Assembly: GCF_000024405.1 (NCBI RefSeq)
Contig: NC_013517.1
Span: 2,294,001 to 2,358,000 of the forward strand
Reading direction: 5' to 3'
DNA: 64,000 nucleotides
Source: Sebaldella termitidis ATCC 33386
GTDB taxonomy: Bacteria > Fusobacteriota > Fusobacteriia > Fusobacteriales > Leptotrichiaceae
Part shown: positions 8,174 through 64,000 of the stretch, one piece after another
Position numbering within the stretch: the first letter of the stretch is position 1
How the letters are laid out: each line of letters opens with the position of its first letter
Program-made: the position numbers and the translations under genes
The notes under the pieces: model-generated
What the model saw: the letters and a program-made list of their open reading frames with translations, nothing else
Told to the model about the DNA's origin: nothing
Database searches by the model: none

Positions 8174-8638
8174 ATGAAATATCTGATTTCCGCCTGTCTG
8201 GCAGGAAAAAAATGTAATTATAAAGGTGAGGCCAATGTAGTTAAAAAGCTGAAGGAGCTGTATCTAAAAGGGGATGCAATATTGGTTTGTCCTGAGGTAC
8301 TGGGCGGACTGAAAACTCCGAGAGAAGCAGCGGAAGTCCTTACTTTTCAAGAGAAACTTACTGTGAAAACTGTCTCAGGCAAGGATGTAACAGAGGCATT
8401 TATTATAGGGGCAGGAAAAGCACTAAAAGTAGCAAAGGAAAATAAAATAACAACTGCTATATTAAAAGCGAGAAGTCCGTCATGCGGATGCAGTCAGATA
8501 TATGACGGGACATTTTCAAAAAAAATAGTAAATAGAGATGGTATTACAGCAGCTCTTTTGAAGCTAAACGGAATAAAAGTAATTACAGAGGAAGAAATTA
8601 TGCATAAACTAAAAAAATTATCTGATAATGAGGAGTAA
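8174..8638 (+). CDS. DUF523 family protein
   Basis: A 154-residue protein of the DUF523 family, whose function is unknown. The conserved features are SACLAGKKCNYKG at the start, VCPEVLGGLKTPREAAEV (about 39-56) and LKARSPSCGC (about 98-107), followed by IVNRDGITAALL. The conserved cysteines suggest a metal or thiol site, which is inference. The ribosome site AAGGGAG is well placed. The cupin gene begins 6 bp after its stop, so the pair is almost certainly one transcript. Confidence 0.85.
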   Translation: MKYLISACLAGKKCNYKGEANVVKKLKELYLKGDAILVCPEVLGGLKTPREAAEVLTFQEKLTVKTVSGKDVTEAFIIGAGKALKVAKENKITTAILKARSPSCGCSQIYDGTFSKKIVNRDGITAALLKLNGIKVITEEEIMHKLKKLSDNEE

Positions 8639-51777: not shown

Positions 51778-51810
51778 TAAAGTATTTTTAAGAATTAAAG
51801 GAGTCAACAA

Positions 51811-52470
51811 ATGTTAAACACTATTGTCAATTCAGTAGGAATTATTGCCTTTGCCTGTTCGGGAGTTTTCAAGGGTTTAAAGTATAATTTTGATATTTTT
51901 GGTATCACTGTTTTAGGAATCATTACCGCCTGCGGAGGCGGAATCATCAGAGATATTTTACTCAACAGAATGCCTGTAGCTATTGCCAAACCACATGATG
52001 TATATCTTGCAATTTTTACTTCGTTTATAATATATTTTACTGTAAAAATTCAGGAAAAGCGTCTAAATATGAAAACTATAGATAATTCAAAAATATTTAT
52101 GAGACTGGTAAAGCTTTCAGATGCACTTGGTCTGGCATTATTTACTATTATTGGTGCCAGTATTGCTGTCAAAAGCGGTCTTGGAATACTTAGTGTCGCC
52201 GTTATGGCGACTATTACAGGGGTCGGAGGCGGAATTATCAGAGACCTTCTTGTAAATGAAATCCCGTTTGTCCTGAAAGAAGATATTTATGCTACATTAT
52301 CTTTTGCAGGGGGCATTATATATTATATCTGTATTGTTAAAATGGGAATTGCCTATAATACAGTTGTCCCATTTTTATTTATAATTTTACTTTTTGTAAG
52401 ACTTGTGGCTATAAAATATAAATTAAGTCTTCATTTTTCAAATTCAAAGAACGGAGAGAATAAAGAATGA
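51811..52470 (+). CDS. TRIC-type cation channel family protein (UPF0126)
   Basis: A 219-residue membrane protein with seven hydrophobic segments and two similar halves, each with the glycine signature GGGIIRD (about 47-53 and 136-142). Bacterial members are homologous to trimeric intracellular cation channels, with potassium transport shown for some; others remain uncharacterised (YicG/YadS). AAGGAG is 8 nt upstream. It overlaps ppx by 4 bp. Confidence 0.9.
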   Translation: MLNTIVNSVGIIAFACSGVFKGLKYNFDIFGITVLGIITACGGGIIRDILLNRMPVAIAKPHDVYLAIFTSFIIYFTVKIQEKRLNMKTIDNSKIFMRLVKLSDALGLALFTIIGASIAVKSGLGILSVAVMATITGVGGGIIRDLLVNEIPFVLKEDIYATLSFAGGIIYYICIVKMGIAYNTVVPFLFIILLFVRLVAIKYKLSLHFSNSKNGENKE

Positions 52471-53360
52471 TTGCATCTATTATAGATATCGGTACTAATT
52501 CTTGCAGATTAATGATTGCAGACAGTAAAAACAATACTGTAAATCCACTTATTAAAAAAGTCGAATTTACCAGACTCGGAGAAGGGGTAAATAAGACAAA
52601 AATGCTGGCTACAGAAGCTGTTAACCGGACATTAAAGGTCTTAAAAGAATATAAAAAAATCAGTGATTCCTATAATTCTGAAAAAATATTAGCCTTTGCT
52701 ACAAGTGCAGTTAGAGATTCTTCAAACAGAGAAGAATTTTTGGAACTTGTAAAAAGAGAATGCGGGATTATAATAAACTGTATCAGCGGAATTGAAGAAG
52801 GAAAGGCTGCTTTTGTGGGCGGAACCAGCTTTCTTGATTCTCATTATTCAAAAGTTCTTCTTGTTGATATCGGCGGCGGCAGTACTGAATTTTCATACGG
52901 AGCTCCTAAAAAAATTCCCAAACATGTAAAAAGCTTTGATTTGGGAGCTGTAAGATTCAAAGAAATGCTTGAAGAGGGGACTACTTATCAGGAATTAGAA
53001 AATCATATTAATAATGAACTGTCTAAAATTGATTTTATTACCAGTGATTTTGAGCTGCTTGGAGTAGCTGCATCAATTACAGGTCAGATTGCCCTGTATT
53101 ATGATGAGCCCTATGATCCAGCAAAATCTCATAATAAAAAACTTACTCTTGATATGATAAGAGATAATTTTCACAAACTAAGTAAAATGTCTGTGGAAGA
53201 GATCATGAAGCTTCCTTCTATAAATGCCAAAAGAGCTGATGTAATAACTTCCGGAACTTTTTTACTTTTAAAAATACTGGAATATTTTAATAAGGAGTAT
53301 ATACTTACTTCTGAAATTGATCTTCTGGAGGGACATTTCATATTGAATATCTTAAATTAG
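52467..53360 (+). CDS. Exopolyphosphatase / guanosine pentaphosphatase family
   Basis: A 297-residue protein of the actin-like Ppx/GppA phosphatase family, with DIGTNSCRLMIAD at the N-terminus, FATSAVRDSSNREEF, the glutamate in SGIEEGKAAFVG and the phosphate loop LVDIGGGSTEFSYG. It has only the two core domains; the C-terminal HD-like domain of longer Ppx proteins is absent. It degrades polyphosphate or pppGpp, which cannot be decided here. It is coupled to the TRIC gene by a 4-bp overlap. Confidence 0.9.
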   Translation: MIASIIDIGTNSCRLMIADSKNNTVNPLIKKVEFTRLGEGVNKTKMLATEAVNRTLKVLKEYKKISDSYNSEKILAFATSAVRDSSNREEFLELVKRECGIIINCISGIEEGKAAFVGGTSFLDSHYSKVLLVDIGGGSTEFSYGAPKKIPKHVKSFDLGAVRFKEMLEEGTTYQELENHINNELSKIDFITSDFELLGVAASITGQIALYYDEPYDPAKSHNKKLTLDMIRDNFHKLSKMSVEEIMKLPSINAKRADVITSGTFLLLKILEYFNKEYILTSEIDLLEGHFILNILN

Positions 53361-53372
53361 AACTTAATCAAA

Positions 53373-53387
53373 TTCGCACTGTGCGAA
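53373..53387. promoter_or_regulatory. Inverted repeat TTCGCAC-T-GTGCGAA
   Basis: Perfect 7-bp arms with a 1-bp centre between ppx and the nuclease-like gene; no T-run. It matches the dyad at 11591, where the arms are separated by 2 bp. Confidence 0.4.
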
Positions 53388-53477
53388 TAAAGAAATTTAA
53401 AAAAACAAACTTGTTAAATATTTATAAATAATATATAATTAAAGTAATTGTTTATAATAAAAAATAATCGAGGTGTT

Positions 53478-53849
53478 ATGCAGGAAAAAATACGTTACAC
53501 CAAAACTGGAAAAAAGGTTGGTGTTTTTGAATTTGAAGGAAGATTACACGAGAAGATTTTGCTGACAAAAGAACAATATGCCGAGCATATTCAAAAAAAA
53601 CATCCGGAAATAACTTTGGAGATAATAGAAAATACACTAAAAAATCCGGATATTGTTACTAAAAAATCAAGATCAAAGAAAGAGCATTTTTATCAGAAAA
53701 AAATAGATAATATCAATTTCTTTGTTGTAGTGTCTTTTTATAAAAATATCAAAAAAATAAGATTTATTCTTACGGCATATTCTGTTAACAATAATGAGTA
53801 TTTAAAGGACAAAAATATATATTATGTTTACAAAAGAAAATTAGACTGA
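53478..53849 (+). CDS. PBECR-like (Barnase/EndoU/ColicinE5-RelE fold) nuclease domain protein
   Basis: A 123-residue basic protein. The pattern KILLTKEQYAEHIQKKHPEI, then an alpha/beta core with PDIVTKKSRSKKEHFYQK, and FFVVVSFYKNIKKIRFIL with a C-terminal LTAYSVNN, fits the PBECR group of small RNase-like domains found in phage and toxin proteins. The conserved His in the first helix and the basic residues are candidate catalytic residues. The ATG follows CGAGGTG; upstream codons to a TTG at 53448 are less likely. The stop overlaps the start region of rpiB. No antitoxin-like partner is adjacent. The family call is by pattern and moderate. Confidence 0.55.
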   Translation: MQEKIRYTKTGKKVGVFEFEGRLHEKILLTKEQYAEHIQKKHPEITLEIIENTLKNPDIVTKKSRSKKEHFYQKKIDNINFFVVVSFYKNIKKIRFILTAYSVNNNEYLKDKNIYYVYKRKLD

Positions 53850-53860
53850 TGGAGGTAGAA

Positions 53861-54292
53861 ATGAAAATAGCAATTGGTAATGACCATGCAGGTGTTGATC
53901 TTAAAGAAAAAGTAGCAGATTTTTTAAAAGGTAAAGGATACGAGGTCGAAAATGTGGGAACAGATACTAAAGAATCTGTAGATTATCCTGATATTGCAAG
54001 AAAAGTAGCTAAACTTGTCAATGATAAAGAGTGTGAATTTGGTATAGTTATATGCGGTACCGGTATAGGAATATCAATTGCTGCCAATAAAGTACCAGGG
54101 ATAAGATGTGCATTGTGCCATAATTCGTTTACTGCGAAATTAAGCAGACTTCATAATAATTCTAATGTTTTATCTTTAGGTGCGAGAGTAATCGGAGATG
54201 AGCTGGCACTCGATATTGTAGATGCGTATCTGACTACAGACTTTGAAGGCGGAAGACATGCCAGAAGAGTAGATAAGATAGAAGAATGCTAA
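53861..54292 (+). CDS. rpiB: Ribose-5-phosphate isomerase B
   Basis: Interconverts ribose 5-phosphate and ribulose 5-phosphate. The 143 residues show GNDHAGVDLKEKV, DYPDIARKVA, the catalytic cysteine in VICGTGIGISIAANKVPG, and RCALCHNSFTAKLSRLHNN with R/H phosphate contacts. The ATG follows GGAGG by 5 nt; an ATG four codons earlier overlaps that site. An allose- or galactose-6-phosphate isomerase is the alternative, but the sequence is closer to RpiB. Confidence 0.93.
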   Translation: MKIAIGNDHAGVDLKEKVADFLKGKGYEVENVGTDTKESVDYPDIARKVAKLVNDKECEFGIVICGTGIGISIAANKVPGIRCALCHNSFTAKLSRLHNNSNVLSLGARVIGDELALDIVDAYLTTDFEGGRHARRVDKIEEC

Positions 54293-54314
54293 AATTTTGA
54301 AAAAGGAGAAAATA

Positions 54315-54662
54315 ATGTCTACTATATTTAAAAAAATTATAGATAAAGAAATACCGGCAAATATCGTATATGAAGATAATGATTTCGTTGCTTTCAGAGA
54401 TATTAACCCTCAGGCAAAGGTACACATTCTTGTTATTCCGAAGAAAGAAATAGTTAATCTTAATGAAGCTTCAGATGAAGATGCTCTTATGCTCGGAAAG
54501 CTTCAGATATTAATCGCCAAAATTGCCAAAGATGAAGGAATAGCTGACGATGGTTACAGAGTTATACTAAATGTGAATAAAGACGGTGGCCAGGAGGTTT
54601 TTCACATTCATTATCATATACTTGGCGGTGAAAAAATCGGAGTTTTAAATTCAAATAAATGA
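54315..54662 (+). CDS. HIT-family nucleotide hydrolase (HinT-like)
   Basis: A 115-residue HIT protein with the histidine triad HIHYHILGG at the C-terminus, preceded by VNKDGGQEVF, and the N-terminal TIFKKIIDKEIPANIVYEDN. HinT-like proteins hydrolyse adenosine phosphoramidates. The ATG follows AAGGAG by 7 nt. It is the last gene before the TetR-like palindrome at 54668. Confidence 0.93.
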   Translation: MSTIFKKIIDKEIPANIVYEDNDFVAFRDINPQAKVHILVIPKKEIVNLNEASDEDALMLGKLQILIAKIAKDEGIADDGYRVILNVNKDGGQEVFHIHYHILGGEKIGVLNSNK

Positions 54663-54667
54663 TTTTT

Positions 54668-54683
54668 ACGACCAGTCGGTCTA
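54668..54683. promoter_or_regulatory. TetR-type palindrome (T)ACGACC-AGTC-GGTCTA
   Basis: GACC-N4-GGTC within a near-dyad, 6 bp after the HIT stop and 19 bp before the methyltransferase GTG. On the minus strand it reads AGACCGACTGGTCGT, close to AGACCGATTGGTCTA at 35978. Confidence 0.45.
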
Positions 54684-54701
54684 AATTAGCAAGGAGTAAA
54701 A

Positions 54702-55472
54702 GTGAAAACTACAATAGCAAGTCCTGACAATAAATTCTATAAGATATTAAGAAAACTGGACAAGAAAAAATACAGAGATAAAAATAATATTTTCAAAGCT
54801 GAAGGTGAGAAATTTCTCAAGGAAAAGATAAATTTCACAAAAATAATAATAAAAGAATCGAAATATGAATATCTTGAAAATAAGTATAAAATTACACAAT
54901 TTAATAATCTGACAATTTTAAAAGATGATCTTTTTGATGAAATTTCAGAACAGGAAAACAGTCAGGGTGTTATTGTTTTATATTCTAAACTGCTTACTTC
55001 AATTGAGGAAATAGACGGAGATGTTGTTATTCTGGATGATGTACAGGATCCCGGAAATATCGGAACTATCATTCGTACTATGGAAGCTTCAGGTTTCAAA
55101 AATCTGATACTTACCAAAGGAAGTGTCGATGTATATAACCCTAAGACAGTCAGGGCAACTATGGGCGGTATATTTAAATCAAATATTATATATGAAACAC
55201 CGGAAAGAATAACAGAATTCCTAAAGGATAATAATTATCAGGTTATTTCTACATTACTTGATAAGAATTCTATTGATTACCGTGATGTGGAGTTAAAAGA
55301 AAAAAATGCCTACATATTTGGAAATGAAGGACACGGTATTTCTGATATTTTTATAGAAAGTACTGATATAAAGGCTATTATTCCTATTTATGGTGATGTA
55401 GATTCCCTAAACGTAAGTGTTGCATCTGGAATATTTTTATATAAAATGAGAGAAAAAATAGAAAATAAATAA
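54702..55472 (+). CDS. SpoU/TrmH-family RNA 2'-O-methyltransferase
   Basis: A 256-residue SPOUT protein. An N-terminal substrate-binding domain (about 1-90, SPDNKFYKILRKLDKKKYRD) precedes the knotted SAM domain with DPGNIGTIIRTMEASGF, FGNEGHGISD and LNVSVASGIFLYKM. It is probably a 23S rRNA methyltransferase of the RlmB/TsnR group; the target base cannot be read from sequence. It starts with GTG after AAGGAG. Confidence 0.9.
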   Translation: MKTTIASPDNKFYKILRKLDKKKYRDKNNIFKAEGEKFLKEKINFTKIIIKESKYEYLENKYKITQFNNLTILKDDLFDEISEQENSQGVIVLYSKLLTSIEEIDGDVVILDDVQDPGNIGTIIRTMEASGFKNLILTKGSVDVYNPKTVRATMGGIFKSNIIYETPERITEFLKDNNYQVISTLLDKNSIDYRDVELKEKNAYIFGNEGHGISDIFIESTDIKAIIPIYGDVDSLNVSVASGIFLYKMREKIENK

Positions 55473-55529
55473 AGCACAAAACATTTAATCACAGCTTTGG
55501 CTCTGCTACGGAAATTTATGGAGGAAAAT

Positions 55530-56114
55530 ATGGCAAGACGTATAGATAATCAATTTTTAGAAAATTTTAAAAGAAATACTGGTCTTATGACCGTTTTTAC
55601 AGAAAAGAAAGATAAACTTGATACTTTTATAAAAATTATGTGTGATGAATTTGAAACATCTGTTTTAAAAAGCGGAACATTTTGTGTTAATTTTGTAAAT
55701 AACTTTGGGGTTAACAATTCTGAGAATTCCAGAAAAATTCATTTAAGTAACTTATTGTTTTTAGAAAAAAGAATAGTTAATTTAAAGGAAGAATTTCTGA
55801 ATGTAAAAAATTCCGGAATGGTAAAAGACAAAGATTCCATTTCTATACTAAATAAAATCCTGGAGGATCTGGAGCTTTTGGAAAAATTCACTGAAGATAA
55901 AGCAAAAGAAACAGAAATAATAATTGAAATTGAAAAAAATAATGTAGTTATCAGCAATATAATTGAAGATAAATATGAAAAATTTTCCGAGAAAATCGTC
56001 GAACTGGAAACTGAAAATAAGAGACTGATGTATAAGCAGAAGGAATATTTCTATATTATTCTTATTTTACTTTTTTTCATTGGTGTTCTTGCAATAATAG
56101 GATTTTTTATATAA
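55530..56114 (+). CDS. Coiled-coil protein with C-terminal membrane anchor
   Basis: A 194-residue protein of unknown family. Residues 1-165 are soluble and largely helical, with coiled-coil heptads in about 65-165 (KIVELETENKRLMYKQKEY), and residues 170-192 form a single hydrophobic tail (FYIILILLFFIGVLAIIGFF) as the only membrane segment. The topology is that of a tail-anchored cytoplasmic protein. The ATG follows GGAGG by 6 nt; an ATG 11 codons earlier overlaps the site. Confidence 0.6.
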   Translation: MARRIDNQFLENFKRNTGLMTVFTEKKDKLDTFIKIMCDEFETSVLKSGTFCVNFVNNFGVNNSENSRKIHLSNLLFLEKRIVNLKEEFLNVKNSGMVKDKDSISILNKILEDLELLEKFTEDKAKETEIIIEIEKNNVVISNIIEDKYEKFSEKIVELETENKRLMYKQKEYFYIILILLFFIGVLAIIGFFI

Positions 56115-56137
56115 TAATTTTATAAAAGGAGATACAT

Positions 56138-56275
56138 ATGAAAAAATGTTTTTTTATTATCTTATTATTATTATTAACAGCTTCATGTGCACAGTCGAAG
56201 TTAGACTGCCGTGGAAAAGATCCCAGATGTACAGATGAGACAGGATTTGATCTGATTGATATAGATTTTTTTTGA
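56138..56275 (+). CDS. Small lipoprotein, 45 aa
   Basis: Short gene with an AAAGGAGA ribosome site. MKKCFFIILLLLLTA is a signal peptide with a lipobox-like TASC (Cys17); the mature 29 residues are acidic and contain three cysteines (C17, C24, C31) and end LIDIDFF. It is followed at once by a terminator. Small lipoproteins of this kind are common beside secretion or toxin loci, but no function can be inferred. Confidence 0.55.
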   Translation: MKKCFFIILLLLLTASCAQSKLDCRGKDPRCTDETGFDLIDIDFF

Positions 56276-56280
56276 TATGG

Positions 56281-56323
56281 AAACGTGTCTTATAGAAAAG
56301 AAAAGACACGTTTTGTATTTATA
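56281..56323 (+). terminator. Terminator of the small lipoprotein gene
   Basis: AAACGTGTCTT pairs with AAGACACGTTT, 11 bp, followed by a T-rich tract. Confidence 0.75.
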
Positions 56324-56432
56324 ACTAATATAGGTAGAGAATTAGTTATTATATTTTACTTTTTAGTTACGTCCGATAATATATGTTATGTATATTTTTC
56401 GAAAAAATAAATACTGTTTATAAAATTGTAAT

Positions 56433-56464
56433 AAAAAATGACCTTTTAATTTAGGTCATTTTAT
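56433..56464. repeat. TGACC/GGTCA inverted repeat, copy 1
   Basis: AAAAAATGACC and GGTCATTTT flank a short loop; the stem has A/T tracts on both sides, as in a bidirectional terminator. It ends just before the stop of the DKNYY gene at 56465. First of nine related copies in 7.3 kb. Confidence 0.7.
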
Positions 56465-56980
56465 TTATTTTTTCTTTACTACTTCTCCATCTTTATAATA
56501 ACTATTTTTATCTTCAGCATTATAATTTATTCCTTCTAAAGTTTGATTTCCATAATAACTTATGAATGTATTTAAATCAGCTTCCTTTATTTTAATTCTA
56601 CCACTATAAACATTATTTTTATCTCTACTATATGGAAAATCCATAGTTTTAAAAGTTTGCAAATCAGCTTCTTTAATTTTAGCTTTCATATAATAAACAT
56701 TTCTTTTATCTTTCCCATACATAGTTTCTATAACCTCAAAAGTTTGCGGATCAACTTTTTCTACATAATAATCTGGAACAAAATACACACGTTTTTTATC
56801 TTTTGCATACCCACCACCTAAACATGTAAAAGTTGAACTATCAACATCTTTTTCTAATACAATTATATTATAATGATCCTTAAACATGTCTTCATTAGTT
56901 TTACATTTAAAAACTTCTATTTTTTGATCACAACTACTAAATAATATACTTAACAATACAAATAATATTACTTTCTTCAT
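56465..56980 (-). CDS. DKNYY-repeat lipoprotein, 171 aa
   Basis: A lipoprotein (signal peptide KKVILFVLLSILFSSC, lipid cysteine about residue 17) with repeats of about 27 residues of the form DxxTFxxxxxxYGKDKxxVYY: GGGYAKDKKRVYF, ETMYGKDKRNVYYM, FPYSRDKNNVYSG and NAEDKNSYYKDG. The DKNYY family has no established function; arrays of paralogues are typical of Fusobacteria. It shares promoter, ribosome site and terminator type with the next DKNYY gene, so the two arose by duplication of a whole transcription unit. Confidence 0.8.
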   Translation of the reverse strand: MKKVILFVLLSILFSSCDQKIEVFKCKTNEDMFKDHYNIIVLEKDVDSSTFTCLGGGYAKDKKRVYFVPDYYVEKVDPQTFEVIETMYGKDKRNVYYMKAKIKEADLQTFKTMDFPYSRDKNNVYSGRIKIKEADLNTFISYYGNQTLEGINYNAEDKNSYYKDGEVVKKK

Positions 56981-57010
56981 TTAATAACTCCTTTTTATTT
57001 TTGTTCTTAT

Positions 57011-57040
57011 ATTTTAACCATAATGTATACTTTTTGTCAA
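57011..57040 (-). promoter_or_regulatory. DKNYY gene promoter, copy 1
   Basis: On the minus strand TTGACA (57040-57035), an 18-bp spacer and TAAAAT (57016-57011). The surrounding 50 bp nearly match the promoter at 57688. Confidence 0.65.
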
Positions 57041-57054
57041 ATTCTACTCCATAT

Positions 57055-57110
57055 AAAAAATGACCACAAAATTTTCGTTTTAAGATCGTTCTTTTTTATA
57101 TTTGAATTTC
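57055..57110. repeat. TGACC/GGTCA inverted repeat, copy 2
   Basis: AAAAAATGACC...TTTTAAGATCGTTCTTTTTT, between two DKNYY units. The arms are diverged (one mismatch), and the T-rich flank and the adjoining TATATTTGAATTTCTTA match other copies. Confidence 0.65.
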
Positions 57111-57118
57111 TTATATAC

Positions 57119-57658
57119 CTATTTCTTTTTTACCATTTTACCAACTTGATAATAATTGTTTTTATCTTCTGCATCAAATGTAAAATTATTTTCTATTATT
57201 TTAAAACTTTTTACATCTGCTTCTTTTAATATTATATCCTTACAATAAACTGTATCTTTGTCTTTTGAATAATGACTATCTAATATTTCAAAGCTAGATA
57301 TATCAATATTTTCTATTTTTTTATATTTATTAAAATTTTCTTGATAATAAATGCCATTTTTATCCATTATATAAAATGGAAAACTAAAATTTTTAAACGT
57401 ATTTGAATCTATTTCATCTATTTTTTCACCCATGTAATAAACATAATTTTTATCTTTCCCATAATATATGTCTATTTCCTCAAAACTATTATAATCTGCA
57501 TCTTTTACTTCTATTTCCCTATAATAAATTTTGTAATTTTTTTGTTCATATGCTTTAATAAGCATTGACTTTTTTATTTTAGGTTCTATCTTAAGATAAG
57601 CAATAAAAATTACACCAAATAATATACTTAAAAATATTAATAACTTTAATTTTTTCAT
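57119..57658 (-). CDS. DKNYY-repeat protein, 179 aa
   Basis: Paralogue of the gene at 56465, but with an uncleaved-looking membrane anchor (KLLIFLSILFGVIFIAYL, about 5-22) instead of a lipobox. Repeats are IDIYYGKDKNYVYYMG, FPFYIMDKNGIYYQ, DSHYSKDKDTVYCKD and FDAEDKNNYYQVG. The protein is probably exposed outside the membrane. Promoter, AAGGAG ribosome site and downstream repeat are shared with its neighbour. Function unknown. Confidence 0.8.
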   Translation of the reverse strand: MKKLKLLIFLSILFGVIFIAYLKIEPKIKKSMLIKAYEQKNYKIYYREIEVKDADYNSFEEIDIYYGKDKNYVYYMGEKIDEIDSNTFKNFSFPFYIMDKNGIYYQENFNKYKKIENIDISSFEILDSHYSKDKDTVYCKDIILKEADVKSFKIIENNFTFDAEDKNNYYQVGKMVKKK

Positions 57659-57687
57659 TAATAACTCCTTTTTATTTTTGTTCTTAT

Positions 57688-57717
57688 ATTTTAACTATAA
57701 TGTATACTTTTTGTCAA
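57688..57717 (-). promoter_or_regulatory. DKNYY gene promoter, copy 2
   Basis: TTGACA (57717-57712), an 18-bp spacer and TAAAAT (57693-57688) on the minus strand, with a conserved leader to the ATG. Confidence 0.65.
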
Positions 57718-57733
57718 ATTTATATCTTCCTGT

Positions 57734-57779
57734 AAAAAATGACCTCCATACTTTGATTTTAAGGTCGTTCTTTTTTTAT
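57734..57779. repeat. TGACC/GGTCA inverted repeat, copy 3
   Basis: AAAAAATGACCT...TTTTAAGGTCGTTCTTTTTTT. It lies 11 bp after the stop of the gene remnant at 57790 on the minus strand, so it is that remnant's terminator. Confidence 0.65.
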
Positions 57780-57789
57780 TTTTGAATTC

Positions 57790-57928
57790 TTACATGCTCG
57801 TTTCTTTTTCTGCTGCTACAGAACAAAATTCTTTATAATTCTCTTCTATTATATTCCAATATAGAAAAAAAGAACCATTACCCCTTTCTTCACAAAACTA
57901 CCTTGAATTATCACCTTGTTCTTTTCTT
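57790..57928 (-). pseudogene. Decayed 3' end of a duplicated gene, copy A
   Basis: Read on the minus strand: RKEQGDNSR, an in-frame stop (TAG, probably from TGG), then FCEERGNGSFFLYWNIIEEN and YKEFCSVAAEKETSM before TAA. The fragment matches copy B at 59206. No family is recognised. It holds a 7-bp hairpin ATGAGGC/GCCTCAT just upstream. Confidence 0.55.
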
Positions 57929-57971
57929 ATGAGGCATAACGCCTCATGAAGGAGTTCATGTCTTTTTCTTT

Positions 57972-58484
57972 TTAATATCCCATACCTTCTATATCTCTCA
58001 AAGATTGTTTTGACTCAGCATAACCATTTTCAAAAGCCTTTTTATAATATTCTTTAGCTTGTATATAATCTCCTTTTTTCTCATTTATAACTCCCAAGTT
58101 ATGAAGAACAACTCCTAATTCATGTAATGTTTCAATTTTATTATTTTCTTCTATTAATTTGTAATATTGCTCTGCTAAATCATATTTTTTTAATTCTATA
58201 TACAAATTGCCTAAATTAAAATATGCTTCTCGATTATTGTTATCTATTGCCATTTTCCAATATTTTTCTGCTAATTCATATTTCTCTTGTTTTGCATATA
58301 GTGAACCTAAGTAATTCATTGCTGTATTATTTTTATTTTTCTCAACTGCTTTTAAAAAATATTCTTCTGCTTTTTTAAAATCTCCTTTTTCATAATATTG
58401 TTCTCCTTTTTCTCCAGTGGACATCTTTGAACAAGATATTAATAGACACCAAAATATTAAAATAATCAAATAAATTTTTTTCAT
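57972..58484 (-). CDS. TPR/Sel1-repeat lipoprotein
   Basis: A 170-residue lipoprotein: signal peptide KKIYLIILIFWCLLIS with lipobox LISC (Cys18), then about four tetratricopeptide repeats such as KGDFKKAEEYFLKAVEKNKN, and NREAYFNLGNLYIELKKYDL, ending with the Sel1-like KEYYKKAFENGYAESKQSL. It is probably a surface scaffold for protein contacts. AGGAGG is upstream. Genes of this build often accompany immunity-type clusters, but that is only context. Confidence 0.75.
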   Translation of the reverse strand: MKKIYLIILIFWCLLISCSKMSTGEKGEQYYEKGDFKKAEEYFLKAVEKNKNNTAMNYLGSLYAKQEKYELAEKYWKMAIDNNNREAYFNLGNLYIELKKYDLAEQYYKLIEENNKIETLHELGVVLHNLGVINEKKGDYIQAKEYYKKAFENGYAESKQSLRDIEGMGY

Positions 58485-58514
58485 ATATTCCTCCTAAATT
58501 TTTTATTATATTTC

Positions 58515-58580
58515 TATCATGCTTGTTTCTCATTCTGTAGCTACAGAATAAAATTTTACATAATCTGTCTTAATTTCTCT
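58515..58580 (-). pseudogene. Decayed 3' end of a duplicated gene, copy C
   Basis: Minus-strand ENREIKTDYVKFYSVATE, then a stop, then ETSM. It aligns with the ENYKEFCSVAAEKETSM tail of copy A, with the premature stop in the same segment. Confidence 0.45.
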
Positions 58581-58651
58581 GTTTTCTTATTGTTTCATTA
58601 AAACAACTCTTTACTATAAAATTTTATATTTTCCTTATTACAACACAGCAT

Positions 58652-58680
58652 AATAAAAAGAGCTATTAAGCTCTTTTCTA
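58652..58680 (-). terminator. Terminator of the 102-aa gene
   Basis: AAAAGAGCT (58656-58664) pairs with AGCTCTTTT (58669-58677), loop ATTA. Confidence 0.75.
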
Positions 58681-58702
58681 TTTAGATCAAATGTATAAGC
58701 TT

Positions 58703-59011
58703 TTATTTCTCTATACATTTATATACTTCATCTTGATATAACTTAATCCGCTTAGTATTCTTTGGATTGTAAAAATCATATATTGTATATACTGTTCCTG
58801 TTGAAACTTTTATTGCTAGAACATCTAATATATTGCCGTTCTCATCAAAAATTGTTGTCTCATAGACATTATTCCCTTTATATTCCGGTTCTAAATAACT
58901 ATGATATTCTTCTATTATTGTAGCACTTTCAATAAGCTTTTTAACCTTCAGTTCACATTTTGAATAACTTATGATATTAATTAATACTAATAATAAAAAT
59001 ACTTTTTTCAT
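58703..59011 (-). CDS. Small exported protein, 102 aa
   Basis: A 102-residue protein with a signal peptide (KKVFLLLVLINIISYSKC). The cysteine at residue 19 could be a lipid site, although the preceding residues do not make a good lipobox. The mature part is charged (VKKLIESATIIEEYHSYLEP) and ends with a single distal cysteine (VYKCIEK). The ATG follows AAGGAG by 8 nt; an ATG 11 codons upstream is less likely. Family not recognised. Confidence 0.6.
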   Translation of the reverse strand: MKKVFLLLVLINIISYSKCELKVKKLIESATIIEEYHSYLEPEYKGNNVYETTIFDENGNILDVLAIKVSTGTVYTIYDFYNPKNTKRIKLYQDEVYKCIEK

Positions 59012-59151
59012 GTTTAAATCTCCTTTTTTATTAAATAAAACCAAATATTAATTTTATTCTTTCTTACTATAATAAGAATATCATAATTCACATAAAAGTA
59101 CAATGATATTCTTTAATAAGATATCTTTTTCCTTATTTAGTCAAATTTATC

Positions 59152-59199
59152 TTTAATGGCCCCCATATTTCAATTTTAAGGTCATTCTTTTTTTATATT
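59152..59199. repeat. TGACC/GGTCA inverted repeat, copy 4
   Basis: The left arm is diverged (AATGGCCCCC) while the right arm TTTTAAGGTCATTCTTTTTTT is conserved. It follows the stop of remnant copy B on the minus strand. Confidence 0.55.
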
Positions 59200-59205
59200 T
59201 GAATC

Positions 59206-59342
59206 TTACATGTCAGTTTCTTTTTCTGCTTCTACAGGATGAAATTCTTCGTAATTCTCTTCTATTATACTCTTATTTGAATTGAAAAAAAAGAGCCTTC
59301 ATGTTCTTTTTTCATATTATCACCATGTTCTCTTTTTTTACC
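59206..59342 (-). pseudogene. Decayed 3' end of a duplicated gene, copy B
   Basis: Minus-strand REHGDNMKKEHEGSFF, a frame shift in a T8 run, then NSNKSIIEENYEEFHPVEAE and KETDM before TAA. It aligns residue by residue with copy A (EQGDN, G-SFF, IIEENYKEF, AEKET-M). Confidence 0.55.
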
Positions 59343-59345
59343 TGT

Positions 59346-59981
59346 TTATTCAAACATATTTAACATTTCCTCAAATTTCTTTTGTGATTCTGTAATTAAT
59401 TTTTCTTTTTCTGAAAATGTTTTATCAAATTTTTCTTTTTCTGATTCATCATAATGAAATGCATTATCCTGAAAAAATTTTCCATGAATTCCTTTTAGAG
59501 CATTCTCCTGTAATTCTAAAACTTGTAATGCTTTCATATAAGTACCTTCTGGCGTACATATATTATAATTCTTACCACTTTTAAACCCATATTTACTGTA
59601 ATAATCTGGATATCCATAAATTATAATTGCTTTATAGGATAAATCCCTAGCTTTTTTTATAGAATATTCTATTAACTTTCTGCCTATTCCTTTATTTTGA
59701 AATTCTGGCAGAATACTTACCGGTCCAAATGTTATTACTTCATGCTTTTGGTTAAATTCATCTTCAATATAAGAAAGCGTATAAATTATGCTTCCTACTA
59801 TCTTATCTTGATGAACAGCAACTAAATCTAAATGTTTTATGAAATTTTTACTTTTTCTCAGATTGTGTACTATAAAATGTTCATCAGCTCCGGGGACATA
59901 TAAATTCCAAAAAGCTTCTCTTGTTAGTTCTTCTACTTCCCTATAATCTTTTTCTGTCTCATTTTTAATTTGAATTTCCAT
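59346..59981 (-). CDS. GNAT N-acetyltransferase
   Basis: A 211-residue GNAT protein. The acetyl-CoA motif is VSILPEFQNKGIGRKLIEYS (Q-x-x-G-x-G), preceded by IVGSIIYTLSYIED, and followed by AIIIYGYPDYYSKYGFKSG, which is typical of the YhbS/predicted acetyltransferase group. The substrate is unknown. The C-terminal 40 residues are charged and helical. It is monocistronic in the accessory array. Confidence 0.88.
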   Translation of the reverse strand: MEIQIKNETEKDYREVEELTREAFWNLYVPGADEHFIVHNLRKSKNFIKHLDLVAVHQDKIVGSIIYTLSYIEDEFNQKHEVITFGPVSILPEFQNKGIGRKLIEYSIKKARDLSYKAIIIYGYPDYYSKYGFKSGKNYNICTPEGTYMKALQVLELQENALKGIHGKFFQDNAFHYDESEKEKFDKTFSEKEKLITESQKKFEEMLNMFE

Positions 59982-60051
59982 ATTATTTCCTTTCTAATAA
60001 CGTATAATCGATAATATTTCTCTTCTATATTTATATACTTTTGCTAGTGAT

Positions 60052-60098
60052 AAAAAACAACCTTCATATTTTGATTTTAAGGTTGTTCTTTTTTTTAT
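60052..60098. repeat. TGACC/GGTCA-type inverted repeat, copy 5
   Basis: AAAAAACAACCTT...TTTTAAGGTTGTTCTTTTTTTT. Both arms changed together (GACC to AACC, GGTC to GGTT), so the pairing is kept by compensatory change. A short stretch after it (60099-60135) is related in bases to the remnants A to C. Confidence 0.65.
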
Positions 60099-60166
60099 TT
60101 ATCTTGTTACTCCAGAATAAAATTTCTACATTTGTCTAAATACCAATGCTCTCAATATACAATCAG

Positions 60167-60532
60167 CTATACCCAAAAAGCCCAATTTACACCAAATCTA
60201 TCTTCAAACCTTACAGTACATGGACTGTAATCTGTAAATTGTATTGGATTAATTGTAATACTTTCAAATTCCATTTTTGAATAAGCACTTTTTAACTCAT
60301 CTTCATTTTCAAACTGGAGGCATAACTGATATCCTCCGGACTTAGAAATGCCGTCATTATTACCAAAATCATTAAGCATAAGCAGCTCACCATGAATTAT
60401 CATTTCTGCATGAATAATAAGACCTGAATCAGAGTCTTCAATGAGTGTTTTAACTTCTGCATACAGTGCATCCTTATACAGCTCTATCGCCTCTTTACAA
60501 TTTCCATTAAAATATATGTGCGTTATCAGCAT
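60167..60532 (-). CDS. VOC-family protein, PhnB-like
   Basis: A 121-residue protein of the vicinal-oxygen-chelate superfamily, PhnB/YjdN-type: YFNGNCKEAIELYKDAL, then VKTLIEDS, HAEMIIHGELLMLND and the C-terminal VRFEDRFGVNWAFWV. Its biochemical role is undefined; some relatives bind metal without known catalysis. GGAGATTG precedes the ATG. Confidence 0.85.
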   Translation of the reverse strand: MLITHIYFNGNCKEAIELYKDALYAEVKTLIEDSDSGLIIHAEMIIHGELLMLNDFGNNDGISKSGGYQLCLQFENEDELKSAYSKMEFESITINPIQFTDYSPCTVRFEDRFGVNWAFWV

Positions 60533-60742
60533 TCCAATCTCCTCTGAATTTAATATTGCTCTACTAAGCTAACTATTATTATAAGCACTTTAGCCGCGAA
60601 GTAAGATTTTAGCTGTTAGTCGAACACTTCCAATAACTTAATTATAGCATACAATATAAAGACAGCCCTATCTTTTTATTCTTGAATTTATAGTTTCCGG
60701 GCTTTTTAATATTAATTTTTTTAAAAAAATATATATTATATT

Positions 60743-61459
60743 TTAATTCTTCTGTTTCTTTTTTAATACTTTTTCTTGATAATAATAATTATTGTCATCT
60801 TCTGCCTCATAGTAAAAACCATCTTTATCTAATGTTTCGTTATATGCTTTAAATGTATGCGGATTAGATCCGGGTAATTTATATTTTAAGTAATATACGC
60901 TATTTTTATCTCTAGAATACAAACCATTTACAATTTCAAAAGTCTTTGCATCTGCATTTATTAATTTTTCATCTATAAAATAAACATTATTATCATCTTT
61001 TCCATAAATACCATCCAGTACTTCAAAAGTTTTTACCTCTAAATCCTCCAGCTTAGTACCAGATGAATATACATTATTCTTATCTTTAGCAAAAAATGTG
61101 CTCATTGGGATAAAACTTTCTATATCAGCACCAAGTACTTTTTGTCTTCCGGAATAAACATTATTTTTGTCTTTTCCATACCCATACGCCATATATTCAA
61201 AAGTTTTTATGTCAGCATCTTCTATAATATTATCCATATAATATACATAGTTTTTATCTTTACTGTACATATTAACCAAAACTTCAAATGTTTCAGGGTC
61301 TGCTCCTTTTATTTCATGAGAACCATTCTCTACATAGTATATTTTTTCATTTATAATTTCGTAGATTACATACTCTTCACTAAATTTTTGAGAAGAACAC
61401 GCTAACGACGAACTTCCTAACATTGTAAGTCCAAATATGCAGTATATTAATTTCTTCAT
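60743..61459 (-). CDS. DKNYY-repeat lipoprotein, 238 aa
   Basis: The largest DKNYY paralogue here. The signal peptide KKLIYCIFGLTMLGSSSLAC ends in a lipobox-like SLAC (Cys21). Six tandem repeats of about 27-29 residues follow, with cores VNMYSKDKNYVYYMD, AYGYGKDKNNVYSG, TFFAKDKNNVYSSG, DGIYGKDDNNVYFID, NGLYSRDKNSVYYLK and a degenerate last unit ending YEAEDDNNYYYQE. Spacers carry ADxKTFE. The upstream region resembles the other DKNYY promoters (TTGACG and TTTAAT on the minus strand, 61491-61520). Confidence 0.82.
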   Translation of the reverse strand: MKKLIYCIFGLTMLGSSSLACSSQKFSEEYVIYEIINEKIYYVENGSHEIKGADPETFEVLVNMYSKDKNYVYYMDNIIEDADIKTFEYMAYGYGKDKNNVYSGRQKVLGADIESFIPMSTFFAKDKNNVYSSGTKLEDLEVKTFEVLDGIYGKDDNNVYFIDEKLINADAKTFEIVNGLYSRDKNSVYYLKYKLPGSNPHTFKAYNETLDKDGFYYEAEDDNNYYYQEKVLKKKQKN

Positions 61460-61532
61460 TTAATAACTCCTTTTTTGTTTTTATTCTTACATTAAATCAT
61501 ATATTATACTACTTCGTCAAATTTCTATCTAA

Positions 61533-61580
61533 TAAAAAAATACTCCTTATATTTTTATTTTAAGATCATTTTCTTTTACA
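61533..61580. repeat. TGACC/GGTCA inverted repeat, copy 6
   Basis: AAAAAAATACTCCTT...TTTTAAGATCATTTTCTTTT. The most diverged copy; the flanks and position between units identify it. Confidence 0.5.
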
Positions 61581-61669
61581 CTTGAGTATTCTTATCCTTT
61601 TTGTTATAATGTTTTATATTAAATTCAGCTGCTACTCTTAACTCAAATATTTTCTCTGGAGGCTTACAT

Positions 61670-62014
61670 ATGAAATATATTTATTTTTTTATCTTTCTGT
61701 TTTCATTTTCAGATTATGTGTATTCTAAACCTATTGCAGGTTATAATACGTCTAAATTAACTCCGTTGCCTCCATTAATAGATAAAAACAATCCTGTGGT
61801 TAAATTTTGTGAAACAAACGGAGGAACTTTTATTCCTGAAAAGCTTGATAAATGTTTACTTCCAAATAATATTAAATTTTATGCTTGGACTTATTGGGAA
61901 AATGGTATAGATAAATGGACTGAGGAAGATTTTCAATTTTATAAAGATAATTACTACAAACATTATCTCGAAACTTATGGAAAAATTTATGAACGTGACA
62001 AAATAGATTACTAA
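61670..62014 (+). CDS. Exported hypothetical protein, 114 aa
   Basis: A 114-residue protein with a signal peptide (KYIYFFIFLFSFSDYVYS) and a mature domain with two cysteines (KFCETNGGTFIPEKLDKCLL), which probably form a disulfide, and aromatic-rich repeats such as FYAWTYWENGIDKWTEEDF. GGAGG is 7 nt upstream. It is on the opposite strand to the DKNYY genes. Family not recognised. Confidence 0.6.
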   Translation: MKYIYFFIFLFSFSDYVYSKPIAGYNTSKLTPLPPLIDKNNPVVKFCETNGGTFIPEKLDKCLLPNNIKFYAWTYWENGIDKWTEEDFQFYKDNYYKHYLETYGKIYERDKIDY

Positions 62015-62058
62015 TAAAAAATGACCACGAAATTTCGATTTTAAGGTTATTTTTTATT
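62015..62058. repeat. TGACC/GGTCA inverted repeat, copy 7
   Basis: AAAAAATGACCACGAAATTTCGATTTTAAGGTTATTTTTT. It overlaps the end of the 114-aa gene and acts as its terminator. Confidence 0.6.
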
Positions 62059-62185
62059 TTTCTATATACTATTCTTCTGATGTTTAGTAATCTGTTCCTC
62101 TGGTTTAAGCATCTTACCTGTACTTTTTCTGATAGTTTTGCTATAATTTCCTTACTATATGTGTGAATTGAAAGGAATGATTAAT

Positions 62186-62650
62186 ATGAAATTTATACTT
62201 CCTATTATTGTTGTAAAAGATATTCAAAAATCAAAGAAATTTTATGAAGAGGTTCTTAGACAAAACATCACTTTAGATTTAGGTTCTAACATAACTTTTA
62301 GTGATAAATTTGCTATTCAAGCTGATTATGCTGATTTAGTCGATGCAGATAATTTCCATATTTCTTTTAATTCTAATGATCATGAGCTTTATTTTGAAGA
62401 AAATGACTTTGACGAGCTTCTAAAACATTTGGAAAAATTTTCTGATATTCATTTTATTCATAAAACGAAAACATATCCTTGGCTTCAAAGAGTTATACGT
62501 TTTTATGATCCGGATTTTCATATTATTGAAATTGGAGAAAGTATGGATACTATTTTTAAAAATCTCTATAATCTTGGAATGACTATTGATGAAATATCTG
62601 AAAAAACTTGTCATCCTATTGAATATATAAAAAAATCTTTAGATTTATAA
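62186..62650 (+). CDS. Glyoxalase/bleomycin-resistance (VOC) family protein
   Basis: A 154-residue VOC protein with ILPIIVVKDIQKSKKFYEEV at the start and FYDPDFHIIEIGESM as the second metal-ligand half. The C-terminal 30 residues (NLGMTIDEISEKTCHPIEYI) are an extension typical of a VOC subgroup of small Firmicutes proteins. The ATG at 62186 follows AAAGGA; an ATG nine codons earlier is less well placed. Substrate unknown. Confidence 0.85.
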   Translation: MKFILPIIVVKDIQKSKKFYEEVLRQNITLDLGSNITFSDKFAIQADYADLVDADNFHISFNSNDHELYFEENDFDELLKHLEKFSDIHFIHKTKTYPWLQRVIRFYDPDFHIIEIGESMDTIFKNLYNLGMTIDEISEKTCHPIEYIKKSLDL

Positions 62651-62655
62651 AGCTA

Positions 62656-62695
62656 TAAAAATGACCCAAAATTTTCATTTAAGGTCATTTTTTAT
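62656..62695. repeat. TGACC/GGTCA inverted repeat, copy 8
   Basis: AAAATGACCC...TTTAAGGTCATTTTTT, directly downstream of the VOC gene on the plus strand. Confidence 0.65.
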
Positions 62696-62765
62696 AATTT
62701 TCTGCTAATTCTATATTGTATAAAATTTCCTCCCTGCAGCTTCTGTTATAACTGCATATTAACTT

Positions 62766-63026
62766 TTATATTTCTGTTTCCAGCTCTAAACATCCATGAT
62801 ACACCTCTGAATAGGAGATTTTTAACCTGACCATTTCCTTTTGAAATTCCCTGATATTAATACCTGTATTTATCAATGAATTCCGTAAAATTATTTTTTC
62901 ATCTTCAGAATTTATATTAGAAGCTATTAAATTGCTGTACTCTTTTAAATAGAATAATCCTTCTTTTGCTCTATCCGCCGGAAGATGCTTTTTTATTAAT
63001 TCCTTCACTTCTGCTTCTTTTTCCAT
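62766..63026 (-). CDS. Small helical protein, 86 aa, unknown
   Basis: Fully helical, charged protein (KEAEVKELIKKHLPADRAKE) with no signal peptide. AAGGTGATATT precedes the ATG. I recognise no family. Confidence 0.5.
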   Translation of the reverse strand: MEKEAEVKELIKKHLPADRAKEGLFYLKEYSNLIASNINSEDEKIILRNSLINTGINIREFQKEMVRLKISYSEVYHGCLELETEI

Positions 63027-63155
63027 AAAATATCACCTTTCTTCTATTTACCTTTTGTGCCATTATAACATCTCTGATTTATTTCTTCAATAAATCCTAT
63101 TATATTTAACTAATTTTTTCTGCTCCTGCAAAATAAATTTTTATATTATTTTACA

Positions 63156-63186
63156 TAAAAAGAACCTGATTATTAGACAGGTTCTA
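63156..63186 (-). terminator. Terminator of the 120-aa gene
   Basis: AGAACCTG (63161-63168) pairs with CAGGTTCT (63178-63185), with T5 on the minus strand. Confidence 0.75.
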
Positions 63187-63199
63187 TAAAATTATCATA

Positions 63200-63562
63200 T
63201 TATATCATATATTTTTTTCTAATTTTGTCTTTATTATCGATAAAATCAGTTATTTTTATTTCTGTGATTTCTAGTTTTTCATTTATAGTTTTATAAATGA
63301 CTTTTTCAAGTTTTATCCCTTTTTTCTTATACCAATTTTCTCCGAAAATAATACGTAATTTTAAAATTTTAAAATATTCCTCTACATTAAATTTATCTGC
63401 TTTCTTTTTCTTTTTTTGAAATTTTGAAAGTTTTCCATTAATATCTGAATATATTTTTCTAATTTCCTCAAAATTTCCATCATAAAAAATTGGTTCCAGA
63501 TCATCAAATTTCGAATTTTCAAATATTTTCAATAAATTCAATAATATTTTTTTAGATACCAT
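63200..63562 (-). CDS. Basic helical protein, 120 aa, unknown
   Basis: A 120-residue lysine-rich cytoplasmic protein (LSKFQKKKKKADKFNVEEYF) with a beta-containing C-terminal part (LEKVIYKTINEKLEITEIKI). GGAGGTG is upstream of the ATG. It could be an immunity or nucleic-acid-binding protein; nothing decides this. A short segment related to remnant copy A lies beyond its terminator (63117-63150). Confidence 0.5.
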   Translation of the reverse strand: MVSKKILLNLLKIFENSKFDDLEPIFYDGNFEEIRKIYSDINGKLSKFQKKKKKADKFNVEEYFKILKLRIIFGENWYKKKGIKLEKVIYKTINEKLEITEIKITDFIDNKDKIRKKYMI

Positions 63563-63692
63563 CGCACCTCCTAAAATACAAACTTTTAATTTGGATTATT
63601 TACTGGACAGGTCTGAAATGAATATAGAATTGCTATGTCATGATATGTTATAAATGAACTCTAATATAACATATATTTTTTTATTAGTCAAA

Positions 63693-63740
63693 TAAAAATG
63701 ACCTCGAAATTTCTATTCTAAGGCTATTTTTTTATATTTA
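63693..63740. repeat. TGACC/GGTCA inverted repeat, copy 9
   Basis: AAAAATGACCTCGAAATTTCTATTCTAAGGCTATTTTTTT, downstream of the DKNYY gene at the window end. Confidence 0.6.
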
Positions 63741-63765
63741 GATTCCCATAACCAGCTTTTACAGA

Positions 63766-64000
63766 TTATTTCTTATTTACTATATTTCCGCGGTAATAAT
63801 AGTAATTTTTATCTTCTGCATCATAAATTATTCTATTAATTTCTTTATTGCTTTCATGAGTTATAAAAGTCTGAACATCTATATTATTTAGTCTGGATAA
63901 ATAATAAATTACGGTTTTTCTTTCCTTTATTTGTCCCCGGGGAATATAAATACCATTTTTATCTTTAGAATACAAACCGTTCAATAGCTCAAAACTATTT
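63766..64000 (-). CDS. DKNYY-repeat protein, C-terminal part (5' end outside window)
   Basis: The frame is open to the last base of the window on the minus strand, so the start lies beyond it. The visible 77 residues begin NSFELLNGLYSKDKNGIYIP, a normal DKNYY unit, followed by RLNNIDVQTFITHES and YDAEDKNYYYYRGNIVNKK. It is a fourth member of the array and is followed by copy 9 of the repeat. Confidence 0.75.
   Translation of the reverse strand, partial: NSFELLNGLYSKDKNGIYIPRGQIKERKTVIYYLSRLNNIDVQTFITHESNKEINRIIYDAEDKNYYYYRGNIVNKK

Follow-up and report, generated by a model that had tools for sequence, protein, structure and literature searches.

The stretch of DNA analyzed here (the window) comprises 64,000 nucleotides of the Sebaldella termitidis ATCC 33386 chromosome (NC_013517.1, positions 2294001-2358000), and its right end falls within a cluster of genes interspersed with copies of a short inverted repeat. 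The neighboring genes encode DKNYY proteins, a TPR protein, a GNAT acetyltransferase and a glyoxalase-like protein, and several others have no Pfam match. A preliminary description of this DNA had reported nine copies of the repeat. We found all nine (c1 to c9, from left to right), and the count has to be raised to ten: c10 is inverted and lies 319 bp beyond the end of the window (window-equivalent positions 64319-64363, chromosome positions 2358319-2358364), where it scored 60.7 bits on the minus strand with R1, a covariance model built from the nine copies. The nine repeats are a genuine local family of approximately 45-50 nucleotides, composed of an A-tract, a hairpin and a T-tract, and resembling bidirectional terminators. 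We compared the genome of S. termitidis (G000; 4,486,650 bases in 3 contigs, with a chromosome of 4,418,842 bases) with that of a second, sister species of Sebaldella (G025), which carries a single strong copy; both this copy and c10 were outside the training set of R1.

According to the lists of open reading frames, c1, c2, c5, c9 and c10 directly follow minus-strand genes and c7 follows a plus-strand gene. All copies within the window are read on the plus strand. The first, c1 (56431-56467; a 10-bp hairpin with an 8-nucleotide loop), ends the minus-strand DKNYY gene u1, and c2 (57053-57097) ends the minus-strand DKNYY gene u2. On the left of c2 lies the promoter and 5' region of u1 (56981-57043, minus strand), which is identical at 62 of 63 positions to its equivalent in u2 (57658-57720). 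Copies c3 (57732-57776) and c4 (59149-59193) follow minus-strand genes only after an intervening hairpin and a common tail, D10 (by eye). The minus-strand GNAT acetyltransferase gene (59346-59981) separates c4 from c5 (60050-60094). Copy c6 (61533-61577) follows no gene end and sits between divergent genes, one running leftward from 61459 and the other rightward from 61670. Further right, c7 (62014-62058) begins at the stop codon of the plus-strand gene 61670-62014, c8 (62655-62695) lies between the convergent genes 62159-62650 (plus) and 62766-63026 (minus; a small gene with no Pfam match), and c9 (63691-63735) ends the minus-strand DKNYY gene u9 (positions 1766-2176 of stretch L035). The earlier statement that the repeat always lies just after a gene is therefore correct for c1, c2, c5, c7, c8 and c9, and does not extend to c6, c3 and c4.

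From the left flank up to a 140-amino-acid glyoxalase-like gene (VOC140), 15 gene borders were counted by hand, and 10 of them carry a copy. Four DKNYY genes are contained in the cluster. The 3' end of one of them (60743-61459) lacks a copy, and the genes on either side of c4, c5, c7 and c8 are not of the DKNYY type. This is not the arrangement that the preliminary description had named as contradicting it, namely one repeat per DKNYY gene explained fully by gene duplication. Yet duplication of the DKNYY gene start does explain why c2, c3 and c6 have common left flanks. DKNYY proteins form a large family, since one protein query returned 65 matching stretches in the S. termitidis genome; the word itself is nearly absent from the literature searched.

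In a 45-column alignment of the nine copies, an A-tract (missing from c4) is followed by a stem usually reading TGACC..GGTCA, a loop and a T-tract. The loop is mostly 16-18 nucleotides long and has a partly conserved AAATTT/ATTTTAAG portion, so that portions of the loops, besides the stems, are common to the copies. The consensus arms quoted in the preliminary description turned out to be too exact, as the left arm AAAAAATGACC is found unaltered in four of the nine copies (c1, c2, c3 and c7) and the complete right arm TTTTAAGGTCATTCTTTTTT in one (c4). The family itself is real. When profiles were built without one copy and searched over 102 kb (the window plus 38 kb rightward), seven of the nine left-out copies were recovered at E < 1e-4; the other two, c1 (E = 0.059) and c6 (E = 0.033), were marginal, yet still ahead of the best non-member.

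As a control, we took 45 further hairpins with an A-tract and a T-tract, located in 23 stretches of the S. termitidis genome, and compared them with the copies. Among the 55 pairs formed by the 11 copies (the ten plus the one of the sister species), 42 scored above the 99th percentile of unrelated terminator pairs and 22 above their maximum. The exceptions are again c1, whose best unrelated terminator scored 38 against a mean of 31.5 to the family, and c6 (34 and 33.4, respectively). The excess of similarity is local: over 25 stretches of 20 kb, 24 hairpin matches within a stretch reached a score of at least 22 (directed query-to-hit counts), and 20 of them belong to the stretch with the cluster, whereas the runner-up, which had been chosen for weak matches, has 2. 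The cluster stretch is also the richest in hairpins (18, compared to 3-13 in the others). Both the 25-stretch and the 45-hairpin comparisons include stretch L133, picked for its weak matches, as well as a pair of stretches from the window with 4 kb in common.

The family is confined to a single locus. A search of the whole genome with R1 returned 11 matches of at least 45 bits, corresponding to the nine copies and to c10 on both strands, all within positions 2350431-2358364, while the best match elsewhere in the 4.49 Mb reached 30.8 bits (best 150 of 5256 candidates). Similarly, when c3 plus its tail was used as a DNA query, every match of at least 41 bits fell inside the cluster (best 40 of 180 candidates). 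Since all strong matches lie within 8 kb, the repeat is not a dispersed mobile one, the mobility suggested earlier as a possibility is not supported, and a genome-wide repeat of the REP (repetitive extragenic palindrome), MITE (miniature inverted-repeat transposable element) or DUS (DNA uptake sequence) type is ruled out at this depth of search. No known RNA family reached its Rfam gathering score in window positions 50000-64000.

Outside the cluster, the terminator that follows the gene at 8181-8498 of stretch L035 (L035 8503-8547, window-equivalent 70503-70547) scored 26.7 bits with R1, and its counterpart in the sister species (L126 7884-7928) scored 40.3 bits. Single terminators thus drift into or out of similarity with the family.

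Concerning their structure, nine of the ten copies have both an A-tract and a T-tract by eye, c4 being the one without an A-tract. A stem-loop followed by a U-tract, as expected of a bidirectional Rho-independent terminator, can be read from both strands, with c6 barely folding. The predicted hairpin energies range from -16.5 kcal/mol (c10) to -0.4 kcal/mol (c6 on the plus strand, the two values for c6 being -0.4 and -2.7 kcal/mol). Over 11 sequences (the ten copies and the one of the sister species), 94.8% of the 77 cells of the 7-pair stem are paired, a value reached by 8 of 500 shuffles; changes on both sides affect three of the seven stem pairs (51 of 500 shuffles), and the covariation score was reached by 2 of 500 shuffles. 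All these scores are inflated by the kinship among copies, and with the nine copies alone the covariation score is unremarkable, being reached by 40 of 500 shuffles. The paired change noticed earlier in c5 is real (CAACC/GGTTG, two compensatory stem changes). Anatomy and some covariation therefore support the view that the repeats act as terminators, as originally suggested.

Two copies depart from this structure. The stem of c6, which lies between divergent genes, has decayed, and c4 has lost its A-tract, while the gene before c4 has a separate hairpin (by eye). In these two copies the pattern fits selection for termination only at gene ends. A second feature accompanies part of the family: within 30 nucleotides on the left of five of the ten copies (c2, c3, c4, c6 and c9) there is a -35-like TTGAC pointing away from the element (in c2 it is the GTCAA of the u1 promoter region, that is TTGAC on the minus strand), compared to 0.013 expected per search window. 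The same motif occurs within 30 nucleotides on the right of none of the ten. Based on their common flanks, the five copies fall into two related groups and hence represent about two events rather than five.

The flanks of the repeats are mosaic. Copies c2 and c3 are alike over 198 nucleotides at 84%, and c2-c6 and c3-c6 over approximately 155 nucleotides, mostly leftward, where the DKNYY promoter and gene start lie; c3 and c4 have 138 nucleotides in common, mostly rightward. Conversely, c5, c7, c8 and c10 resemble the others almost only within the element, over approximately 50-60 nucleotides (61 between c7 and c10). Core similarity was detected in 54 of the 55 pairs, of which 43 have neither flank in common, four only the left, six only the right and one (c2-c3) both, at P < 0.01; with 108 flank tests, approximately one positive is expected by chance. 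Because comparing cores with shuffled sequence is a lenient test, we relied on the 45-hairpin control described above. Two copies have different partners on their two sides: the left flank of c3 resembles those of c2 and c6 and its right flank those of c4, of the sister-species copy and, weakly, of c2, while the left flank of c4 resembles that of c9 and its right flank those of c3, of the sister-species copy and, weakly, of c2. Even between c2 and c3, identity is uneven (62 of 63 positions in the promoter, 37 of 45 in the element and 36 of 44 in the coding start). Copies close together in the cluster are no more alike than those far apart (Mantel r = -0.002, P = 0.50; r = 0.10, P = 0.30 without c1), and no spatial gradient of similarity was seen.

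To have a reference for the erosion of flanks, we used the DNA that is syntenic between the two species, where 13 of 16 hairpins could be aligned and their flanks are identical at 33 to 43 of 45 positions (two flanks aligned over 34 and 11 positions). With the reservation that coding and intergenic hairpins were mixed in this set, co-duplicated flanks of similar age should therefore remain visible, and the loss of flank similarity among the copies is not expected from age alone.

The tail D10 extends over approximately 60-85 nucleotides and is found on the minus strand to the right of c3 (57795-57856, with a near-palindromic TTCTG..CAGAA core) and of c4 (59209-59272), a third time, without the hairpin, at 58497-58581, and more weakly near 63111. 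No further full copy was present among the matches listed in a genome search. The palindromic core TTCTGTAGCTACAGAA lies at window positions 58530-58545, with variants near 57805, 59221 and 63115. The similarity of the third copy begins at about the T-tract and adjoins the start of the TPR gene, with its ribosome-binding region, so the junction looks as if it had fallen in a repeat that was later lost. Although the tail right of c3 can be read as a 21-amino-acid C-terminal remnant, we rejected a lost gene as the origin of D10: the reading of 21-22 amino acids had no convincing match outside its own locus and no intact gene in the 33 genomes of the bacterial family (best 0.27). The differences between two D10 copies are distributed 4/4/2 over the codon positions (by hand) and do not favor third positions; D10 may therefore be plain 3' untranslated region.

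The comparison with the sister species shows that the locus is variable. Gene order is kept for the left flank, the GNAT acetyltransferase gene, the small gene at 62766, u9, VOC140 and the right flank. In the sister species, contig C57 carries the counterpart of the left flank (window 50007-56276 and 56353-56415) and contig C53 that of the right flank. The GNAT gene is split over these two contigs, each of which ends within it, so that their join is inferred. Between the same conserved genes, the two species carry different gene cassettes. Specific to S. termitidis are u1, u2, the TPR gene and the 58703 gene between c1 and c4, the genes from 60167 to 62650 between c5 and c8, the 63200 gene, and a gene of 549 amino acids with paralogs elsewhere in the sister species. 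The latter has instead a 107-amino-acid plus-strand reading frame with no Pfam match and further DKNYY sequence, and its only strong copy of the repeat (63.2 bits with R1) lies beside the GNAT gene. At the contig breaks inside this gene, the letters near C57 1-60 (stretch L125) and the high end of C53 (stretch L126), which read TCTGTAAAT and ATTTACAGA by eye, suggest an insertion sequence in the GNAT gene of that species.

One exchanged block has both of its ends at repeat positions. On the left, interspecies similarity crosses c1 with gaps and stops at 56480; on the right, it begins again inside the left arm of c4, at 59155, and extends into the GNAT gene. These are two of the eight ends of interspecies blocks. 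According to BLAST, the ends at 59982 and 62764 are each 68 nucleotides away from a copy (c5 and c8, respectively), the end at 63766 is 30 nucleotides from c9, and that at 64196 (64210 with a local aligner) is about 110-120 nucleotides from c10, while the ends at 63054 and 66608 have no copy nearby. The local aligner extends two ends weakly and with gaps into c5 (60069) and c9 (63706), which we did not count as repeat-bounded. Hairpins at the five paralog loci of the 549-amino-acid gene scored 20-22 bits with R1 or were absent among the matches listed, and c10 was therefore probably not brought by that gene family. Other known types of variable locus were also considered. There is no tRNA in stretches L034, L035, L125 and L126 that would indicate a tRNA-linked island. 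A prophage remnant and a defense island were dismissed because, of 10 cluster proteins, just two (the TPR protein and the acetyltransferase) had matches in PHROGs and a single one (the TPR protein) had a match, a weak one, in PADLOC.

We consider it moderately probable that this is a local family of terminators within a hotspot of accessory genes, spread by short-range duplication and recombination, with the terminators serving as joints. In the RNA of either strand, the TGACC/GGTCA hairpin would fold ahead of a U-tract, leading to release. The family would have arisen and spread solely within this hotspot, where duplication, replacement and loss acted on units the size of a gene. Because the flanks are mosaic and one exchange ends at repeat positions, we infer that the intergenic joint, composed of the terminator and often of the promoter of the next gene, was either carried along with these units or provided the short homology where the crossover fell, in which case the repeats would promote the junctions rather than mark them. 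Copies needed as terminators would retain their stem and those no longer needed, such as c6 and c4, would decay. Recombination of the RecA type or through short homology, perhaps after DNA uptake, could suffice for these steps with no dedicated recombinase.

Several observations weigh against this reading. A strict terminator scan, allowing only loops of 3-8 nucleotides, detected c1 alone among the copies, with 4 sites compared to 4.4 expected. The left end of the exchanged block rests on c1, a marginal member of the family, whose counterpart in the sister species scored 14.7 bits, aligns with gaps and is barely recognizable. None of the remaining six block ends is inside a repeat; they are at gene ends and, since the sister species has no copy there, they lend no support to recombination at repeats. 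The earlier idea of recombinogenic repeats that shuffle genes is thus partly supported, by the variable locus, the mosaic flanks and the one block, with most of the ends counting against it. Moreover, of the borders where a kept gene meets a variable one, six of eight have a copy, as do four of seven inner borders, which is no clear excess (hand count), and breakpoints fall between genes in any case, as do terminators. The flank reference judged only the 13 hairpins that aligned, and there is a single informative relative, with contigs broken inside the GNAT gene. Finally, 17 of 33 genomes of the bacterial family, including those of the genus, have an R1 match at E <= 0.01, and matches reach 43.8 bits outside the genus, mostly scattered (best 150 candidates per genome). 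The same general terminator design thus occurs in other genera, and convergence inflates the family.

Convergence is one alternative: AT-rich bidirectional terminators of this bacterial family may simply resemble each other, the cluster being a selected subset. The scattered matches in other genera are in agreement with this, as is the fact that for c1 and c6 an unrelated terminator scores as high as, or higher than, the family does on average. The leave-one-out recovery and the comparison with the 45 other hairpins count against it for c2-c5 and c7-c10, though not for c1 and c6, as do the high scores of c10 and of the sister-species copy, both outside the training set, and the loop portions that are common beyond the stems. 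As an explanation of the whole cluster we regard convergence as quite improbable. Plain tandem duplication deserves more attention: units of a gene, mostly DKNYY, and its terminator would have been copied long ago, and their flanks would have eroded while the terminators were selected, with no recombination at the repeats. The 155-198 nucleotides common to c2, c3 and c6, including the DKNYY gene start, the four DKNYY genes of the cluster and the position of most interspecies block ends are what such a process would leave behind. It would leave unexplained, however, the copies between non-DKNYY genes (c4, c5, c7 and c8), the 43 of 54 pairs with neither flank in common although the hairpins aligned between species keep alignable flanks, the different partners of c3 and c4 on their two sides, and neighbors that are no more alike than distant copies. 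We find it possible but doubtful as the sole explanation.

Insertion of a small element of MITE or REP type after genes, acting only incidentally as a terminator, could produce copies such as c5, c7, c8 and c10, whose similarity is confined to the element, and could account for the one inverted copy. It is very improbable given that no match above 31 bits exists outside the 8-kb cluster among the candidates examined; genes for Y1 transposases, to which REP sequences could be linked, occur only at the two distant positions 362894 and 3323769, and no target-site duplication was seen by eye at c5, the sole site inspected. An integron-like array, with the repeats as sites of a site-specific recombinase, would explain why genes that are small, unrelated and variable in content are mostly bounded by one inverted repeat. 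We give it hardly any credit: no integron integrase over the cut-off exists in the S. termitidis genome, where the 13 weaker matches have equivalents in all 14 controls, the genes lie on both strands relative to the repeat, and no GTTRRRY-like core was seen by eye.

Compared with known systems, the repeats resemble the REP and MITE stem-loop families in being short, repeated, intergenic palindromes. Those families are dispersed through genomes, unlike the Sebaldella family, which is confined to one locus. With Rho-independent bidirectional terminators the repeats have in common the A-tract, stem, loop and T-tract, the location mostly after gene ends and the capacity to serve both strands, but neighboring copies are alike beyond the level observed among the 45 other terminators of the genome. 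The promoter early stem-loop (PeSL) elements of T4-like phages were reportedly described by Arbiol in 2010 and by Comeau in 2014. From the description in PMC4503421, they appear similar in combining a stem-loop terminator with a promoter alongside and in being repeated within a region of gene shuffling. Unlike PeSLs, the Sebaldella repeats lie in a bacterial chromosome, at one 8-kb locus and among host genes, and only five of ten have a -35-like motif nearby. Neither would need a dedicated recombinase.

The minimal mobile elements of Neisseria are also similar, in that whole-gene cassettes differ between the same conserved genes across genomes; PMC3898611 describes these as incorporated solely by homologous recombination. 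They are defined there by the flanking conserved genes, whereas the Sebaldella terminators lie inside the variable region, so that exchange of sub-blocks may be possible. In the same source, inverted repeats of the neisserial DUS form terminators and are tied to DNA exchange, yet there are nearly 2000 of them throughout the genome (PMC3898611), compared to ten in one place here. Overall, phage PeSLs and neisserial minimal mobile elements appear to be the closest concepts. Among the matches listed in our searches of the literature on Sebaldella, DKNYY and terminators or gene shuffling, no paper treats this locus by its title.

These likenesses prompt a further interpretation, which we offer tentatively and consider rather unlikely: the locus may correspond in a chromosome to the PeSLs of phages. 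It would be a cassette array built by the bacterium itself, with homologous terminators, with or without promoters, as joints between most of its genes, and these joints would let general recombination swap single genes with no integrase and leave the newcomers insulated. Hotspots of gene gain and loss with no integrase or phage are common and poorly explained. A locus where terminators constitute the common homology, together with a swap between sister species bounded by two of them, would make it testable whether insulated gene ends permit the exchange of single genes.

A second, smaller local family of terminators was found by following weak matches to stretch L133 (chromosome positions 1380001-1400000), approximately 960 kb away. 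If the locus described here were indeed such a counterpart of PeSLs, this family would mean that hotspots form in this way more than once. It consists of three hairpins within 6 kb, at positions 10345, 12869 and 16238 of the stretch, which have about AAAACGACCTTATAT..AAGGTCGTTTT in common, and the last of them adjoins a shortened paralog of the 549-amino-acid gene.

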